Assembly (NCBI GenBank): GCA_029210545.1
Contig: JARGFV010000072.1
Span: forward strand, 1 to 13,314
From: a bacterium
GTDB lineage: Bacteria > BMS3Abin14
Direction: 5' to 3'
Length of the DNA: 13,314 nucleotides
Position 1 is the first letter of the stretch; the number at the start of each line of letters is the position of its first letter. Shown piece after piece: positions 4,032 through 10,631 of the stretch. The notes under the pieces are model-generated. The model saw only the letters and a program-made list of their open reading frames with translations, ran no database searches and was not told the DNA's origin. The position numbers and the translations under genes are program-made.

Positions 4032-5045
4032 TTGACCCGGAAAAATAAAAGCGAATCCAAAACCGTTTCAGCCCTCGGCCTTCTCTCCGGCGGTCTGGAC
4101 AGCATGCTGGCCGCGGAACTTCTAAGGCGGCAGGGTGTCCAGGTCACAGCCGTCATCTTCACCACCCCGTTTTTCGGCAGCGCCCGGGGAGAAGCGGCAG
4201 CCAGGCGCCTTGGTATCCCCTGCCGGGTGGAGGACATCACCGTCGATCACCTCGTCATGGTCAAGGCGCCAAAGTACGGCTACGGGAAGAACATGAACCC
4301 CTGTATCGATTGTCACGCCATGATGTTTGCCAGGGCCGGCGACCTGATGAAGCAGCTCGATGCTGATTTTCTTTTCTCGGGTGAAGTCCTGGGCCAAAGG
4401 CCGATGTCCCAGAATATCAGAGCCCTCGGGCTGGTGGAAAAAACCTCCGGTTACGAAGGTCTTCTCCTGCGCCCCCTGTCGGCGAAACTGCTTCCCGGGA
4501 CCGAGCCGGAGAATATGGGGCTCGTGGACAGGGAGGCGCTCCTTGACATCCAGGGTCGGTCGCGCAAGAGACAGATGGAGCTGGCCGGCCAATGGGGAAT
4601 ACAGGAGTACCCGAACCCGGGAGGCGGGTGCCTGCTCACAGATCCGGGTTTTTCGGTCCGGCTCAGGGACCTTTTCGATCACATGCCGGATGCGGGCGCC
4701 ACGGACGTTGAAAGACTGAAATATGGAAGACATTTCAGGCTGCCCGGGGGCACCAGGGTAGTGGTGGGGCGGCACCGGGAGGACAACGAAGCTCTCGAAC
4801 TCCTGGCGGGCCCGGGAGACATCCTGCTCAAGCACGACGGCGTTCCCGGTCCCCTGACACTCCTCGATCCGAAGGCCCCGTCAGAGGAAATAGAGATGGC
4901 CGCCTCCATCGCGGCCAGGTACGGAAAAGATCCGAACAAGAATCAGCCCGTATCTGTCAGGGTCCTGTTCCCGGATGGCGATGAGAACGTCCTGGAAGTC
5001 CGGCCCATGGGCCTGGTCGAACTTGAGGCATACCGTGTCGGATGA
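4032..5045 (+). CDS. PP-loop ATPase of thiouridine-synthase (ThiI/MnmA-like) type with C-terminal NFACT-R-like domain
   Basis: A 337-residue cytoplasmic protein. The N-terminal HUP/PP-loop ATPase domain has the ATP pyrophosphatase signature SGGLDS (19-24). PCIDCH gives a Cys91-X2-Cys94 pair and NPGGGCLLTDPGF includes Cys200; adenylating sulfur-transfer enzymes use such cysteines. From about 200 to 337 the pattern YGRHFRLPGG...VVVGRHREDNEALE resembles the NFACT-R (DUF814) RNA-associated domain that occurs fused to ThiI-like ATPases. The likely role is thiolation of a tRNA uridine; the exact position is unknown. Databases often mislabel relatives as thiamine biosynthesis or tRNA methyltransferase. 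The start is TTG 4032, chosen for the GGAG at 4021-4024 and because the PP-loop is near the N-terminus. The last 11 nt overlap the Smr gene, implying coupled translation. Confidence 0.85.
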   Translation: MTRKNKSESKTVSALGLLSGGLDSMLAAELLRRQGVQVTAVIFTTPFFGSARGEAAARRLGIPCRVEDITVDHLVMVKAPKYGYGKNMNPCIDCHAMMFARAGDLMKQLDADFLFSGEVLGQRPMSQNIRALGLVEKTSGYEGLLLRPLSAKLLPGTEPENMGLVDREALLDIQGRSRKRQMELAGQWGIQEYPNPGGGCLLTDPGFSVRLRDLFDHMPDAGATDVERLKYGRHFRLPGGTRVVVGRHREDNEALELLAGPGDILLKHDGVPGPLTLLDPKAPSEEIEMAASIAARYGKDPNKNQPVSVRVLFPDGDENVLEVRPMGLVELEAYRVG

Positions 5046-5457: not shown

Positions 5458-6483
5458 ATGAAACGGGTAGCGTTCCTGTGTTTGTTATCCCTCATCCTGA
5501 CGGCATCCGCAGTCCCGGAGGCTTACGGTGAATTAATGCGGGGGGGCGCCACTTTAAGTTCTGTTTCCTCGGTAGTGAAGATAAGCAGGGAAGGCAACGG
5601 ACTCGACTCTCTCACGGAGGGAGAGGTGCTGTATGTTTTCACGGAAACAGGTGATCCTGTATCCCAGATCGTCGTAAGGGACATCTTCTCAGACGAGATC
5701 CACAGTGAACCGCTTCCCGATGCGGTGGGGAGGCAGATCCGGGAAAGCGGGGCTATCCTTATTTTCAGCAACCTCAGGGAATACGGGGATTTTATCAAGG
5801 CCTACCTGGACGGATCCAAGGAGGCCTTCGGGAATTTCATCACCAGCCATCCTGACAGCGAACTGCGCGAAGAAGCACAGCGTGTTTTTGATGGCATCGT
5901 TTACCGGCCATACAAACTCCAGGGGACACCCCAGGCGCTGAACGAATTTATCGAGAAGAACCCGGAAAATTACTACGTCAGGAATGCTTTGAGAAGAAGG
6001 GATGATCTTTTTTACCAGCCGGTCAAGAGTATGGACCGGATCAGCTGTTACCGATGGTTCGTCTCAAACTACCCTGACAACATTAATGTTGACGGGGCCA
6101 TGGAACGCATCAGTGAACTACTCTCCATCTATGAAAATACCACCCTCGAGGAGGTGGCCAGATATCCTCGAAGTCATAAGGAGAAGAAGATCAAATTTTC
6201 CTGTTACCTGCAAAGCGCGCTGCCGGTGTACGTTGAGGGCCCTGGCGTCGGTAGAAAAACAGCACAGTTCAGCAGCCCCAGGAACGTTGGCGAGTACCTC
6301 AATTTCCAGGTTGAAGTGAAAGGCATCGTTTTATGGAGGCTTTTTGTCAACAGGGAGGATGAGACGGTTGTAAAAACGATCCTGGAGGCACGAAAGGGCG
6401 AGAAAATCCACGTGTATGGTGTCGTGTTCGATGCCACCGGTGGCGCTCCATGGATCGACGTGGATGATGTCGAAAAAAACTGA
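5458..6483 (+). CDS. Secreted protein of unknown function with helical repeats and a C-terminal OB-like region
   Basis: A 341-residue protein that I do not recognise. It begins with a clear signal peptide (basic MKR, a hydrophobic stretch to about residue 19, likely cleavage near AYG/ELM), so it should be periplasmic; there is no lipobox Cys. Residues about 115-235 show repeated helical units ending in HPDS, NPEN and YPDN after an aromatic-rich helix, like degenerate tetratricopeptide units. The last 90 residues are beta-rich (YLNFQVEVKGIVLW, GEKIHVYGVVFDATGG, WIDVDDVE) and resemble a small OB fold. The start is ATG 5458 with AGAGG 7 nt upstream; the longer reading from 5401 would put residues before a perfect signal peptide. 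It is followed after 18 nt by a membrane protein gene and probably forms an operon with it. Confidence 0.8.
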   Translation: MKRVAFLCLLSLILTASAVPEAYGELMRGGATLSSVSSVVKISREGNGLDSLTEGEVLYVFTETGDPVSQIVVRDIFSDEIHSEPLPDAVGRQIRESGAILIFSNLREYGDFIKAYLDGSKEAFGNFITSHPDSELREEAQRVFDGIVYRPYKLQGTPQALNEFIEKNPENYYVRNALRRRDDLFYQPVKSMDRISCYRWFVSNYPDNINVDGAMERISELLSIYENTTLEEVARYPRSHKEKKIKFSCYLQSALPVYVEGPGVGRKTAQFSSPRNVGEYLNFQVEVKGIVLWRLFVNREDETVVKTILEARKGEKIHVYGVVFDATGGAPWIDVDDVEKN

Positions 6484-7037: not shown

Positions 7038-7619
7038 ATGAAATACATCACAATCTTCCCGGAGTACCCCATCAGCATCCACCAGATGGAAGAGCTCAAA
7101 AGATACCGTAAGAAGATCATCAACGCCCAGATCGATACGGCCTCCCTCATCAGGGTCCTCAACGGGCCTTCCAGGATCTTGCGCACGGTGGACGGCCACC
7201 ACGTGAACAAATCGTTCATCGTTGGAGCGAGGGACTACGTGGATCCCACAGCGAGAAAGTCCCAGCTTGCCGATTATGAGCGCAGGAACCAGATCAACCT
7301 TTACGTTTCCATGGAGCTTTCCACGGTGGAGGAGGTCGCCGGGATCATCTCGGTGCGAAAGATAACCGATAACGTGGAGCTTTGCCTCGAGCGGGCCATG
7401 GCTCCTACCGAGACGGGCGAGTTCATCGGGATGCTCACCGATTGGAGCACGACCAACAAGCTGGATTCCTTTATCGATCCCGGCATCATGAACGTTTTCG
7501 ACAACGCCAACCTCAGCCACTCATTCCTGGCCGTGAACCGGAACCTTATCAAGAGCTTTGTCCTGGTAAGGGAGATGGGGGAGGAGAATGTAGAACGGGT
7601 GATCCAGGCAAAAGCTTGA
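7038..7619 (+). CDS. Conserved-looking cytoplasmic protein of unknown function
   Basis: A 193-residue protein that I do not recognise. It has no signal peptide and no membrane segment, and the composition is that of a compact alpha/beta protein. Visible stretches that might define a family are LNGPSRILRTVDGHHVNKSF (41-60), RDYVDPTARKSQ (65-76) and APTETGEFIGMLTDWSTT (121-138). The start ATG 7038 has AAAGG 5 nt upstream, and codon use matches the neighbours, so the gene is credible. It is separated by 170 nt and a repeat hairpin from the gene before it and faces the selenoprotein gene tail to tail, with another heptad-repeat structure between them. No function is offered. Confidence 0.75.
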   Translation: MKYITIFPEYPISIHQMEELKRYRKKIINAQIDTASLIRVLNGPSRILRTVDGHHVNKSFIVGARDYVDPTARKSQLADYERRNQINLYVSMELSTVEEVAGIISVRKITDNVELCLERAMAPTETGEFIGMLTDWSTTNKLDSFIDPGIMNVFDNANLSHSFLAVNRNLIKSFVLVREMGEENVERVIQAKA

Positions 7620-7752: not shown

Positions 7753-7787
7753 CTTTTCCCGGCGACCGCCGGATAAAATCACACCCC

Positions 7788-8000
7788 TCACGTACCCCCG
7801 TAACCGATGGTCACCTTTCCTCCGTCGATGATGACGGGGACCCGGCGGCTGCCGCCGGCGGCCTTGAGCATCTCTTCCAGGAGAGATGAGTCCTGGACAA
7901 CGTCCCGGTAATCGACTTCCCGCCCCTCATTCCCATAGGCCTCACGGGCCTTGACGGTGTAGGGTCAGCTCAGTTTTCCGTAGATAATGACTTTGGACAT
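7788..8000 (-). CDS. Glutaredoxin-like selenoprotein with in-frame UGA (Sec12), UXXT active site
   Basis: A 70-residue thioredoxin-fold redoxin that is readable only if the UGA at 7967-7965 is translated as selenocysteine. The product starts MSKVIIYGKLS, then Sec12, then PYTVKAREAYGNEGREVDYR, and ends GGSRRVPVIIDGGKVTIGYG with GT. That is the glutaredoxin plan: beta strand, active site U-P-Y-T where CPYC is expected, helix, VPVII with the cis-Pro (Pro54), and the closing GYGG turn. The reading continues 58 codons beyond UGA to a second stop with full conservation of the fold. ATG 8000 has GGGAGG 6 nt upstream, and a TTGAAT-17-TATAAT promoter precedes it. A SECIS-like hairpin lies at the correct distance. 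I recall NCBI families named UXX-star (seleno)protein that fit this description. The only alternative is a pseudogene or a sequencing error at one codon. Confidence 0.88.
7937..7951 (-). promoter_or_regulatory. SECIS-like hairpin for selenocysteine insertion
   Basis: Reading the minus strand, AGGCC pairs with GGCCU around the 5-nt loop CGUGA. The loop begins 19 nt after the UGA and its second base is G. Published rules for bacterial SECIS elements ask for a loop of 3-14 nt with a G in the first two positions, 16-37 nt from the UGA, so all are met. CCC directly after the UGA can also pair with GGG at 7934-7932 to extend the base of the structure. Confidence 0.7.
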
Positions 8001-8017
8001 GGATTTCCTCCCGGAAA

Positions 8018-8071: not shown

Positions 8072-8100
8072 ATTATAGAGAAAACAGTGTGCAAATTCAA
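8072..8100 (-). promoter_or_regulatory. Sigma-70 promoter of the selenoprotein gene
   Basis: On the minus strand TTGAAT (8100-8095) is followed by a 17-nt spacer and a perfect TATAAT (8077-8072), which would start transcription near 8065 and give a leader of about 65 nt containing the GTTTACG repeats. The -35 overlaps the palindrome TCAAATTTGA (8097-8106). Confidence 0.7.
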
Positions 8101-8212: not shown

Positions 8213-8296
8213 TCCCCCCTAAAATCTGGCACATCGAAACCGTTTCTGCTAACTTATGTGGCCTTTTAATCAACAGCAATGACATTGGAGGTTTCC

Positions 8297-8833
8297 ATGC
8301 ACCTGACAGTGATCCCGGAACGGTGTTCCGGGTGCAAGGTCTGCGAACTGGCCTGCAGCGTCGGCCGGGCCGGGGCCAACAACCCGAAGAAGAGCAGGAT
8401 CCGGGTCATGGTCCTGTATCCGCATCCTGTCATCCGCATGCCCATCGTCTGCAAACAGTGCGGTGTGCCGAAGTGCGGAGAGGGCTGCCCCACCAACGCC
8501 ATCTACCGTGAAAACGGCGTGGTCCAGATCGACGAGGAGAAATGCATCTCCTGCTACCAGTGCATCGCCAGCTGTCCCTTCGGGGCCATGTTCCTGCACG
8601 AGGAAGTGGAACAGCCGTTAAAGTGCGACCTGTGCGACGGGCAGCCCATGTGTGTGCAGGCGTGCCCCAAGGAGGCTCTCAAGTTCCATCCAAAACATAT
8701 CCTGGGACAGGCTCACCGCCTTTCCGCGGCACGCAACTACGCGAAGATGAGCAAAGTGGAATACATGGACGGCGGGGAGAAAAAGACCCTCCGGTACGCC
8801 AGGATCAAGAAAGGCGGCCAGGATGAAACTTAA
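8297..8833 (+). CDS. Four-cluster ferredoxin subunit of aldehyde oxidoreductase (AorA-like)
   Basis: A 178-residue cytoplasmic electron-transfer protein with sixteen cysteines in four groups: CSGCKVCELAC (10-20), CKQCGVPKCGEGC (52-64), CISCYQCIASC (83-93) and CDLCDGQPMCVQAC (110-123). This is the arrangement of HycB/DmsB-type subunits carrying four [4Fe-4S] clusters. Its partner is the tungsten oxidoreductase encoded next, which it overlaps by 11 nt, so it should carry electrons from the tungsten site to ferredoxin or another acceptor, as AorA does in Aromatoleum. The start is ATG 8297, with GGAGG at 8287-8291. An ATG at 8279 in the same frame lies in front of that ribosome binding site and would only add six residues. 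No NADH-binding third subunit is present beside it. Confidence 0.92.
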   Translation: MHLTVIPERCSGCKVCELACSVGRAGANNPKKSRIRVMVLYPHPVIRMPIVCKQCGVPKCGEGCPTNAIYRENGVVQIDEEKCISCYQCIASCPFGAMFLHEEVEQPLKCDLCDGQPMCVQACPKEALKFHPKHILGQAHRLSAARNYAKMSKVEYMDGGEKKTLRYARIKKGGQDET

Positions 8834-10631
8834 AGGCGGCTACTTTTTCAGGATTCTCGAGGTGGACCTGACTTCAGGTACAAGTACGGTGCGGCCTTTT
8901 GACGAGGAGTTCGCCCTCAAGTTCATCGGCGGCAGAGGGTTCGGCGCCAGGATACTGGCTGACCACCTCAAGAAGCACGGGAAGGTCGATCCCCTCGGCC
9001 CGGAGAATATCCTTGTCATCGCTCCAGGTCCCCTCACGGGAGTCTATCTGCCCTCCTCGGGGAAGAACTCCTTCATCACCCTTTCCCCCGCCACGGGGAT
9101 CTACGGTGACTCCAGCATCGGGGGCGTTTTCGGGGTTGAGCTGCGGCAGGCGGGGTTCGATGCCGTCGTCCTGAAGGGCCGCGCCCCGGTGCTCTCCTTC
9201 CTTTCCATCGAGGACGACAAGATCAAGGTCGTCCCCATGCCGAGGGCGGCGGGCGCCACCAACCTTGAAGCGGAGAAGATGGTCCGTGAGGCGACCGGTG
9301 ACGAGGACATGAAGATCGCTTCCATCGGCCCGGCCGGGGAGAACGCCGTTGTCTATTCGTGTGTCAACACCGACTGGAGCCGCAACGCCGGACGGATCGG
9401 GATCGGCGCCGTCATGGGTTCCAAGAACCTGAAAGCCATTGCGGTGCGGGGCTCGAGGGACCTGCCGGTGGCCAACCTCCCGGCCCTCATGGAGGCGTCC
9501 AGGGAAGGGTATGCGCTACTGAAAAACCACGAGTATTTCCGCTTCTGGCAGGAGCAGGGTCTCATGTCGGTGGTGGATTATGCCAACAAGATGGGGATCC
9601 TGCCCACCCGCAATTTCCAGGAAACCATCTACGACAGGGCCGACCGCATGAACGGGTACGTCATGGAGGACCGTTACAAGATCGGCGATTCGGCATGCTT
9701 CGGCTGTTCCATGACGTGCGGAAACGTCTGCCTCGTCAAGGAGGGCAAGTACCGGGGCACCGTGACGGAAGGCCCCGAATACGAGTCGGCCGCCATGCTG
9801 GGCAGCAACCTGGGAACATCCAACTTCGCCTTTATTCTCAAGGCCAACGCCCTGTGTGACGAACTGGGCGTGGACACCATCTCCACCGGGTCCATTATCG
9901 CTGCGGTCATTGAGGGTCTCGAGCGGGGTTTCCTTACAGAGGGCGACCTGGACGGGAAGGCCATCGGGTGGGGTGACGAGGACCCGATCCTGGAACTGAT
10001 CGAAAAGATATCCAGGCGGGAGGGGGTCGGCGACACCCTGGCCGGCGGGGCGAGGTCCATTATCTCGAGGTGGCCCGATATGGCCCGCGTGGTCAACCAT
10101 GTCAAGGGGCTCGAGCAATCGGCCTACGATGCCCGGGCCGCGATTTCCATGGCCCTTGGCTTCGGGACCTCGGACATCGGTGCCCATCACACCAGGGCCT
10201 GGACCGTGGCCACGGAACTGGAGAACGGTACCGGCTGGGGCCTGGAGGAAAAAGCCGATTTCGTCATCTACCACCAGACGGTCAGGCCCCTGTTCGACAT
10301 GCTGGGTGTCTGCAGGCTTCCCTGGATCGAGCTCGGGTTCCCGGAAGAGTATTATCAGCGCTTTTTTGCCGCGGTCACCGGTGTGGACCTTTCAATGGAT
10401 GAGCTTATGGCACGTTCCAACCACATCTACGATCTCACACGGGCGATCAACGTCGCCCAGGGAGTGACCCGGAGTGACGATTATCCGCCCCGCAGGACCC
10501 TGGAAGACCCGGTGCCCGCCGGTCCCACCGCCGGCAAGTCCGTCGATCGTGAGGAGTACGAGAAGATCCTGAGTATGTACTATGAAAAGCGTGGATGGGA
10601 CCAGGACGGTAAACCTTCCATGGAACTCTGA
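8823..10631 (+). CDS. aor: Tungsten-containing aldehyde:ferredoxin oxidoreductase, catalytic subunit
   Basis: A 602-residue cytoplasmic enzyme that oxidises aldehydes to carboxylic acids, or runs in reverse, using a tungsten bis-pterin site and one [4Fe-4S] cluster. GGRGFGARIL (36-45) belongs to the N-terminal pterin-binding domain. The cluster ligands of Pyrococcus furiosus AOR (Cys288, 291, 295, 494) correspond to Cys292, Cys295, Cys299 and Cys497. The two DXXGL(C/D)-type pterin-binding motifs are DELGVD (346-351) and DMLGVC (492-497). EGPEYES (316-322) and GAHHTR (453-458, probable proton-relay His) match the active site region. The length is normal. The start is ATG 8823, overlapping the ferredoxin gene. 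Class II benzoyl-CoA reductase BamB is a relative, but no bam genes are nearby. The substrate is unknown. A bidirectional terminator lies 67 nt after the stop codon. Confidence 0.95.
   Translation: MKLKGGYFFRILEVDLTSGTSTVRPFDEEFALKFIGGRGFGARILADHLKKHGKVDPLGPENILVIAPGPLTGVYLPSSGKNSFITLSPATGIYGDSSIGGVFGVELRQAGFDAVVLKGRAPVLSFLSIEDDKIKVVPMPRAAGATNLEAEKMVREATGDEDMKIASIGPAGENAVVYSCVNTDWSRNAGRIGIGAVMGSKNLKAIAVRGSRDLPVANLPALMEASREGYALLKNHEYFRFWQEQGLMSVVDYANKMGILPTRNFQETIYDRADRMNGYVMEDRYKIGDSACFGCSMTCGNVCLVKEGKYRGTVTEGPEYESAAMLGSNLGTSNFAFILKANALCDELGVDTISTGSIIAAVIEGLERGFLTEGDLDGKAIGWGDEDPILELIEKISRREGVGDTLAGGARSIISRWPDMARVVNHVKGLEQSAYDARAAISMALGFGTSDIGAHHTRAWTVATELENGTGWGLEEKADFVIYHQTVRPLFDMLGVCRLPWIELGFPEEYYQRFFAAVTGVDLSMDELMARSNHIYDLTRAINVAQGVTRSDDYPPRRTLEDPVPAGPTAGKSVDREEYEKILSMYYEKRGWDQDGKPSMEL

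Follow-up and report, generated by a model that had tools for sequence, protein, structure and literature searches.

UXX-star selenoprotein family 1 is already known as a curated NCBIfam model (NF041114); it appears in a 2026 review (PMC13188914) under the name "Distant Grx-like protein 1", with a UxxT motif and two selenocysteines (Sec, U), and a 2022 review (PMC9312934) gives Distant Grx-like protein 1 as UxxT. The 2026 review additionally says that UXX-star proteins may use Sec to bind metals or unknown substrates, and cites Haft and Tolstoy (2025) for UXX-star family 2 and a fusion. By its form, the name UXX-star probably stands for a C-terminal Sec-X-X-stop, which would make the second Sec the namesake feature. 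Here we describe a further member of the family, encoded on the minus strand of the window (the whole 13,314-nt stretch of DNA that we analyzed).

In the window sequence, a minus-strand ATG (8000-7998) is followed by ten codons and then a TGA (7967-7965). The first-pass annotation had noted this 11-codon frame and read the TGA as selenocysteine, yielding a glutaredoxin-like protein that carries the motifs UPYT, VPVII and GYGG; its start coordinates and motif readings are correct, but its 70-residue protein, ending at 7790-7788, is too short. Past that point the frame continues as TGA GGG GTG TGA (7790-7779), which we read as Sec71-Gly-Val-stop, so that the C-terminus becomes ...GYGGT-Sec-Gly-Val. 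Based on the family profile score and on homologue comparison, the complete coding sequence, including the stop, spans 7779-8000 (minus strand) and encodes a 73-residue double selenoprotein (MSKVIIYGKLSUPYTVKAREAYGNEGREVDYRDVVQDSSLLEEMLKAAGGSRRVPVIIDGGKVTIGYGGTUGV). The protein contains no cysteine, as had been stated of the 70-residue extent, but it carries two selenocysteines. Upstream, a ribosome-binding site (GGGAGG, 8007-8012, minus strand) lies 6 nt before the ATG, with similar sites in many homologues. The good promoter also claimed for the gene is present as a sigma-70-like site (TTGAAT-17-TATAAT, 8072-8100, minus strand, 10 of 12 matches), but by itself it is weak evidence for a gene because one such site was found against roughly 0.7 expected by chance.

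In a protein profile search, the sequence scored 103.9 bits (E 4e-30) against NF041114.2, "UXX-star selenoprotein family 1", whose curated cut-off is 72, with residues 4-71 aligned to profile positions 1-68 of 70 and the alignment running through the second TGA. A genome search with the same model gave 93.3 bits over profile positions 1-70 with two TGA codons inside the match; a second match in the same genome (C157) proved to be another glutaredoxin-like protein, whose motif is CVWC and whose gene lacks an in-frame UGA. Both hallmarks of the family are present, namely a UxxT motif with Sec near the N-terminus (UPYT, with its Sec at TGA 7967-7965) and a C-terminal Sec followed by two residues and a stop, as in all 28 genes compared below. 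We also compared the window gene with its homologue L055 (dN 0.12 vs. dS 0.71) and, more broadly, with the eight homologues whose alignment is gap-free (dN 0.12-0.29, dS 0.71-2.26), and found that differences fall mostly at third codon positions, which indicates purifying selection. Together with the family match, this selection excludes a chance origin of the frame. The comparisons thus indicate that the gene is real and readily overlooked, that UGA 7967-7965 is a selenocysteine codon, and that the protein is almost certainly a double-Sec member of UXX-star family 1.

The glutaredoxin fold proposed in the first-pass annotation, with Sec at the position of the N-terminal active-site Cys, is borne out by a PF00462 (glutaredoxin superfamily) score of 35.7 bits against a gathering score of 22.9, by exchange of Cys and Sec at position 12 among homologues, and by structure prediction. 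An AlphaFold2 model built from a 27-sequence alignment (pLDDT 90.4) has the order strand-helix-strand-helix-strand-strand, and its residues 1-69 match glutaredoxins and NrdH, which are its best fold matches, with Z of 9-10, and also match GST N-domains; the cis-Pro loop is kept. Sec71 immediately follows the point at which a full glutaredoxin would begin its last helix. In glutaredoxins that end of the sheet adjoins the active-site Cys as well as the glutathione groove, so that Sec12 and Sec71 could plausibly touch, by analogy. Where a mono-selenol with no resolving partner in the protein had been envisaged, a second Sec at position 71, three residues from the C-terminus, instead points to a probable role as a two-selenol redoxin or a metal(loid) ligand.

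For the redoxin reading, we propose that Sec12 of UPYT would act as the attacking selenol, and that Sec71, on a C-terminal tail that folds back, would serve as its resolving partner, the pair alternating between a two-selenol form and an internal diselenide. Thr15 is unable to resolve, and on this reading the second Cys of CPYC would not be needed. We give this cycle about even chances, while the account as a whole—a double selenoprotein of UXX-star family 1, with a minimal glutaredoxin fold of 73 residues and such a redox cycle—is the best explanation and one that we favor with some confidence. A more tentative extension is that UXX-star family 1 at large may consist of intramolecular di-selenol redoxins, in which a Sec12-Sec71 diselenide would span the glutathione-binding groove and the C-terminal Sec would stand in for the last helix as well as for the second active-site Cys; such a protein would work also in bacteria without a recognizable glutathione synthetase. 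A search for a glutathione synthetase domain, which represents one route to glutathione, gave no match in the window genome or in two family genomes with a completeness rating of 100% that carry the gene (G004 and G009), while two others contained the domain; glutathione is therefore doubtful as an obligatory reductant.

The strongest competing explanation keeps the same protein but assigns it a different chemistry, with Sec12 and Sec71 as soft ligands that would jointly hold a metal or metalloid, or pass it on (mercury, arsenic, copper or selenium itself), instead of cycling disulfides. Such a role agrees with the suggestion in PMC13188914 that UXX-star Sec residues may be metal ligands, and a Thr in place of the resolving Cys suits a dithiol redoxin poorly. 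Two scattered homologues additionally lie near genes that we identified by eye as an ACR3-like transporter (L063) or a CsoR-like regulator (L058), but a metal-resistance neighborhood is not consistent across loci, and the retained cis-Pro loop and best fit to glutaredoxins and NrdH speak for a redoxin. On balance we consider the ligand role rather unlikely and prefer the two-selenol redoxin.

Whether the protein has two selenols at all depends on the UGA at 7790-7788, which we examined in a homologue set of 28 genes (27 non-duplicate, window gene included) from the window's taxonomic family and from MAGs labelled Nitrospirae/Nitrospirota, Deltaproteobacteria, Rokuibacteriota, Acidobacteria, Spirochaetes and Myxococcales. 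A 70-residue mono-selenol glutaredoxin terminating at this codon would accord with UGA being a normal stop in this genome, and, should Sec be scarce, some ribosomes will stop there. Against this reading, codon 71 is TGA in all 28 genes, always two codons ahead of the stop, and the resulting C-termini follow the pattern U-[GASE]-[VA]-stop, whereas the true stop (7779-7781 in the window, where it is TGA) varies among TGA (14 genes), TAA (8) and TAG (6). The NF041114 profile also aligns through codon 71, and a SECIS-like hairpin follows it within a narrow distance range (see below). We therefore regard termination after 70 residues as very improbable; the comparison identifies UGA 7790-7788 as a second selenocysteine codon (Sec71, 7788-7790, minus strand) rather than a stop.

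The first selenocysteine codon (Sec12, 7965-7967, minus strand) is less constant. A search of homologues for Cys or Sec at position 12, as the first-pass annotation had recommended, found TGA in 26 of the 28 genes and a Cys codon (TGC or TGT) in the other two (L061 and L062), in agreement with its reading of this UGA as selenocysteine. A wider search recovered more relatives with Cys12, several of them with CPYC or CPHC motifs and still ending in U-x-x-stop (L093, L099, L102 and L103); another Cys12 relative, L037, has a C-terminal U-x-x followed by TGA. Most homologues thus carry U at the C-terminal site irrespective of whether position 12 is U or C, and because the Cys12 relatives mostly keep the U-x-x end, the C-terminal Sec is the steadier, more conserved of the two. 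We also observed a small branch (L038, L100 and L101) with a CPHT motif, Cys12 and no C-terminal Sec, ending in GYTGD, which provides a natural Cys-only comparison. Separately, we found a second, partial UXX-star gene copy (residues 43-73, with one TGA) in L076 (CP070698.1, bin582; match 6001-6093; G008:C1:541768-541863), lying far from the complete gene on the same chromosome, and either a relic or a rearranged copy.

Because an Rfam scan of the window returned nothing at gathering level, we tested for SECIS hairpins by comparison, with a search requiring at least 4 pairs and shuffled sequences as control. This minus-strand search, also anticipated in the first-pass annotation, yielded two candidate bSECIS-type hairpins supported by homologues, each placing a G in a small apical loop a short distance past its UGA (18 and 20 nt). 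The candidate for Sec12 (AGGCC-CGUGA-GGCCU, 7937-7951, minus strand) has its apical loop 18 nt past the UGA, and the second nucleotide of that loop is G. In the window sequence alone it was not significant (p = 0.395 vs. synonymous shuffles), but as an ungapped hairpin across 25 sequences it had 95.2% of cells paired, with 10 double-changed cells vs. 2.0 in shuffled controls (0/500) and a covariation score of 0.313 vs. 0.141 (0/500). In the two Cys12 homologues (L061 and L062), the pairing of this hairpin is lost while the 3' hairpin is kept.

The candidate for Sec71 (UCCGGC-GGUC-GCCGGG, 7758-7773, minus strand) lies in the 3' untranslated region, its loop 20 nt after the UGA in the window. 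A corresponding hairpin is present in 26 of the 27 non-duplicate genes, with the loop starting 16-24 nt after the second UGA and a G within the first two loop positions in all 26. Since MAFFT alignment of the 3' region leaves these hairpins unaligned, we counted pairs anchored on the loop, and found all five loop-proximal positions paired in 26/26, even though 24 of the 26 hairpins are distinct in sequence. Against dinucleotide shuffles the window hairpin reached p = 0.010, and the combined p over 27 sequences was about 1e-25, an optimistic value since kin are counted as independent. The comparison shows each Sec UGA to have its own candidate bSECIS-type hairpin, the second located beyond the stop codon, and the two UGAs 9 nt apart (Sec71 and stop 74) would be distinguished by their distance to this second hairpin.

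We additionally searched the window genome (2.72 Mb, 241 contigs, 97.5% complete) for the selenocysteine machinery that the first-pass annotation had expected, and found tRNA-Sec (74.3 bits, anticodon UCA), selA (598.5 bits) and selB (362.8 bits), as well as a Sec-type formate dehydrogenase gene (fdhA) with one in-frame TGA (G000:C14:23054-26143) directly before selA-selB on contig 14. The exception was selD, whose best match in the 241-contig assembly scored 64.8 bits, under the cut-off of 125; a relative's SelD as query also gave no match in the window assembly. Within the window's taxonomic family, 6 of 10 genomes carry a selD with one in-frame TGA. The neighbor of selD in one of these (G003), read by eye as YedF-like, likewise had zero matches in the window assembly, and the simplest interpretation would be a gap in the assembly. 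Of the 12 window genes, 6 end at UGA as an ordinary stop, and this, with the alternation of position 12 with Cys, rules out reassignment of UGA to Trp; the Cys/Sec exchange (L061, L062, L093 and L037) aligns the position with Cys rather than Trp. The weakest alternative, which takes the frame for a glutaredoxin pseudogene and the two UGAs for stops or sequencing errors, can cite the missing selD, but is already refuted by comparison, given the recurrence of the same UGAs in many independent genomes that bear the labels of different phyla, the purifying selection, the covarying hairpins and the presence of tRNA-Sec, selA and selB.

The genomic neighborhood gives no function, because neighbors of the selenoprotein gene change outside the taxonomic family. 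Profile matches identify a 4Fe-4S ferredoxin (8279-8833, plus strand) and an aldehyde:ferredoxin oxidoreductase (8823-10631, plus strand) divergent from the selenoprotein gene, and the latter, mostly with its ferredoxin, is upstream and divergent in eight loci of the taxonomic family (window included). With the pairing confined to this family, we dropped a functional link, and both genes are probably outside the selenoprotein's mechanism. A mobile origin was also dropped, with zero matches in phage records (DNA) or plasmids (protein). The convergent neighbor at 7038-7619 (plus strand) had zero Pfam or NCBIfam matches, and similar genes adjoin the UXX-star gene in several family genomes. Elsewhere in the window, 4032-5045 (plus strand) encodes a ThiI/MnmA-like HUP domain fused to an NFACT-R_2 RNA-binding domain, scoring under every NCBIfam equivalog cut-off.

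This locus illustrates that spotting the first UGA does not protect a short double-Sec gene from being misread, as a Sec codon three residues from the end mimics a stop. The covarying hairpins of the 3' untranslated region add comparative evidence for the C-terminal Sec as the more conserved of the two, and point experiments at the Sec pair rather than at a lone selenol.

Among known systems, classical glutaredoxins (TIGR02181; PF00462) and UxxC Sec-glutaredoxins share with the window protein the fold of residues 1-69, the cis-Pro loop and an active site after strand 1, but the window protein lacks the second motif Cys (Thr15 instead) and the final helix, has a C-terminal Sec, and scores 31.8 bits against the TIGR02181 (glutaredoxin 3) equivalog cut-off of 90. 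NrdH redoxin and cGrx1, whose wild-type forms carry a CxxC-type dithiol motif, resemble it in small size and fold (Z 9.5-9.8), and differ from its UPYT motif and C-terminal Sec. The related glutaredoxin-like (seleno)proteins of UXX-star families 2 and 3 (NF041211 and NF047338) and the HUGP/GUXX-star fusion (NF045501) match it at 43-49 bits, far under their cut-offs of 97-325 bits. With UXX-star family 1 there is no difference of substance: the window protein shares its length of about 70 residues, UxxT motif, C-terminal UXX-stop and two Sec residues, scores above its curated cut-off, and is 49-84% identical to the homologues collected here.
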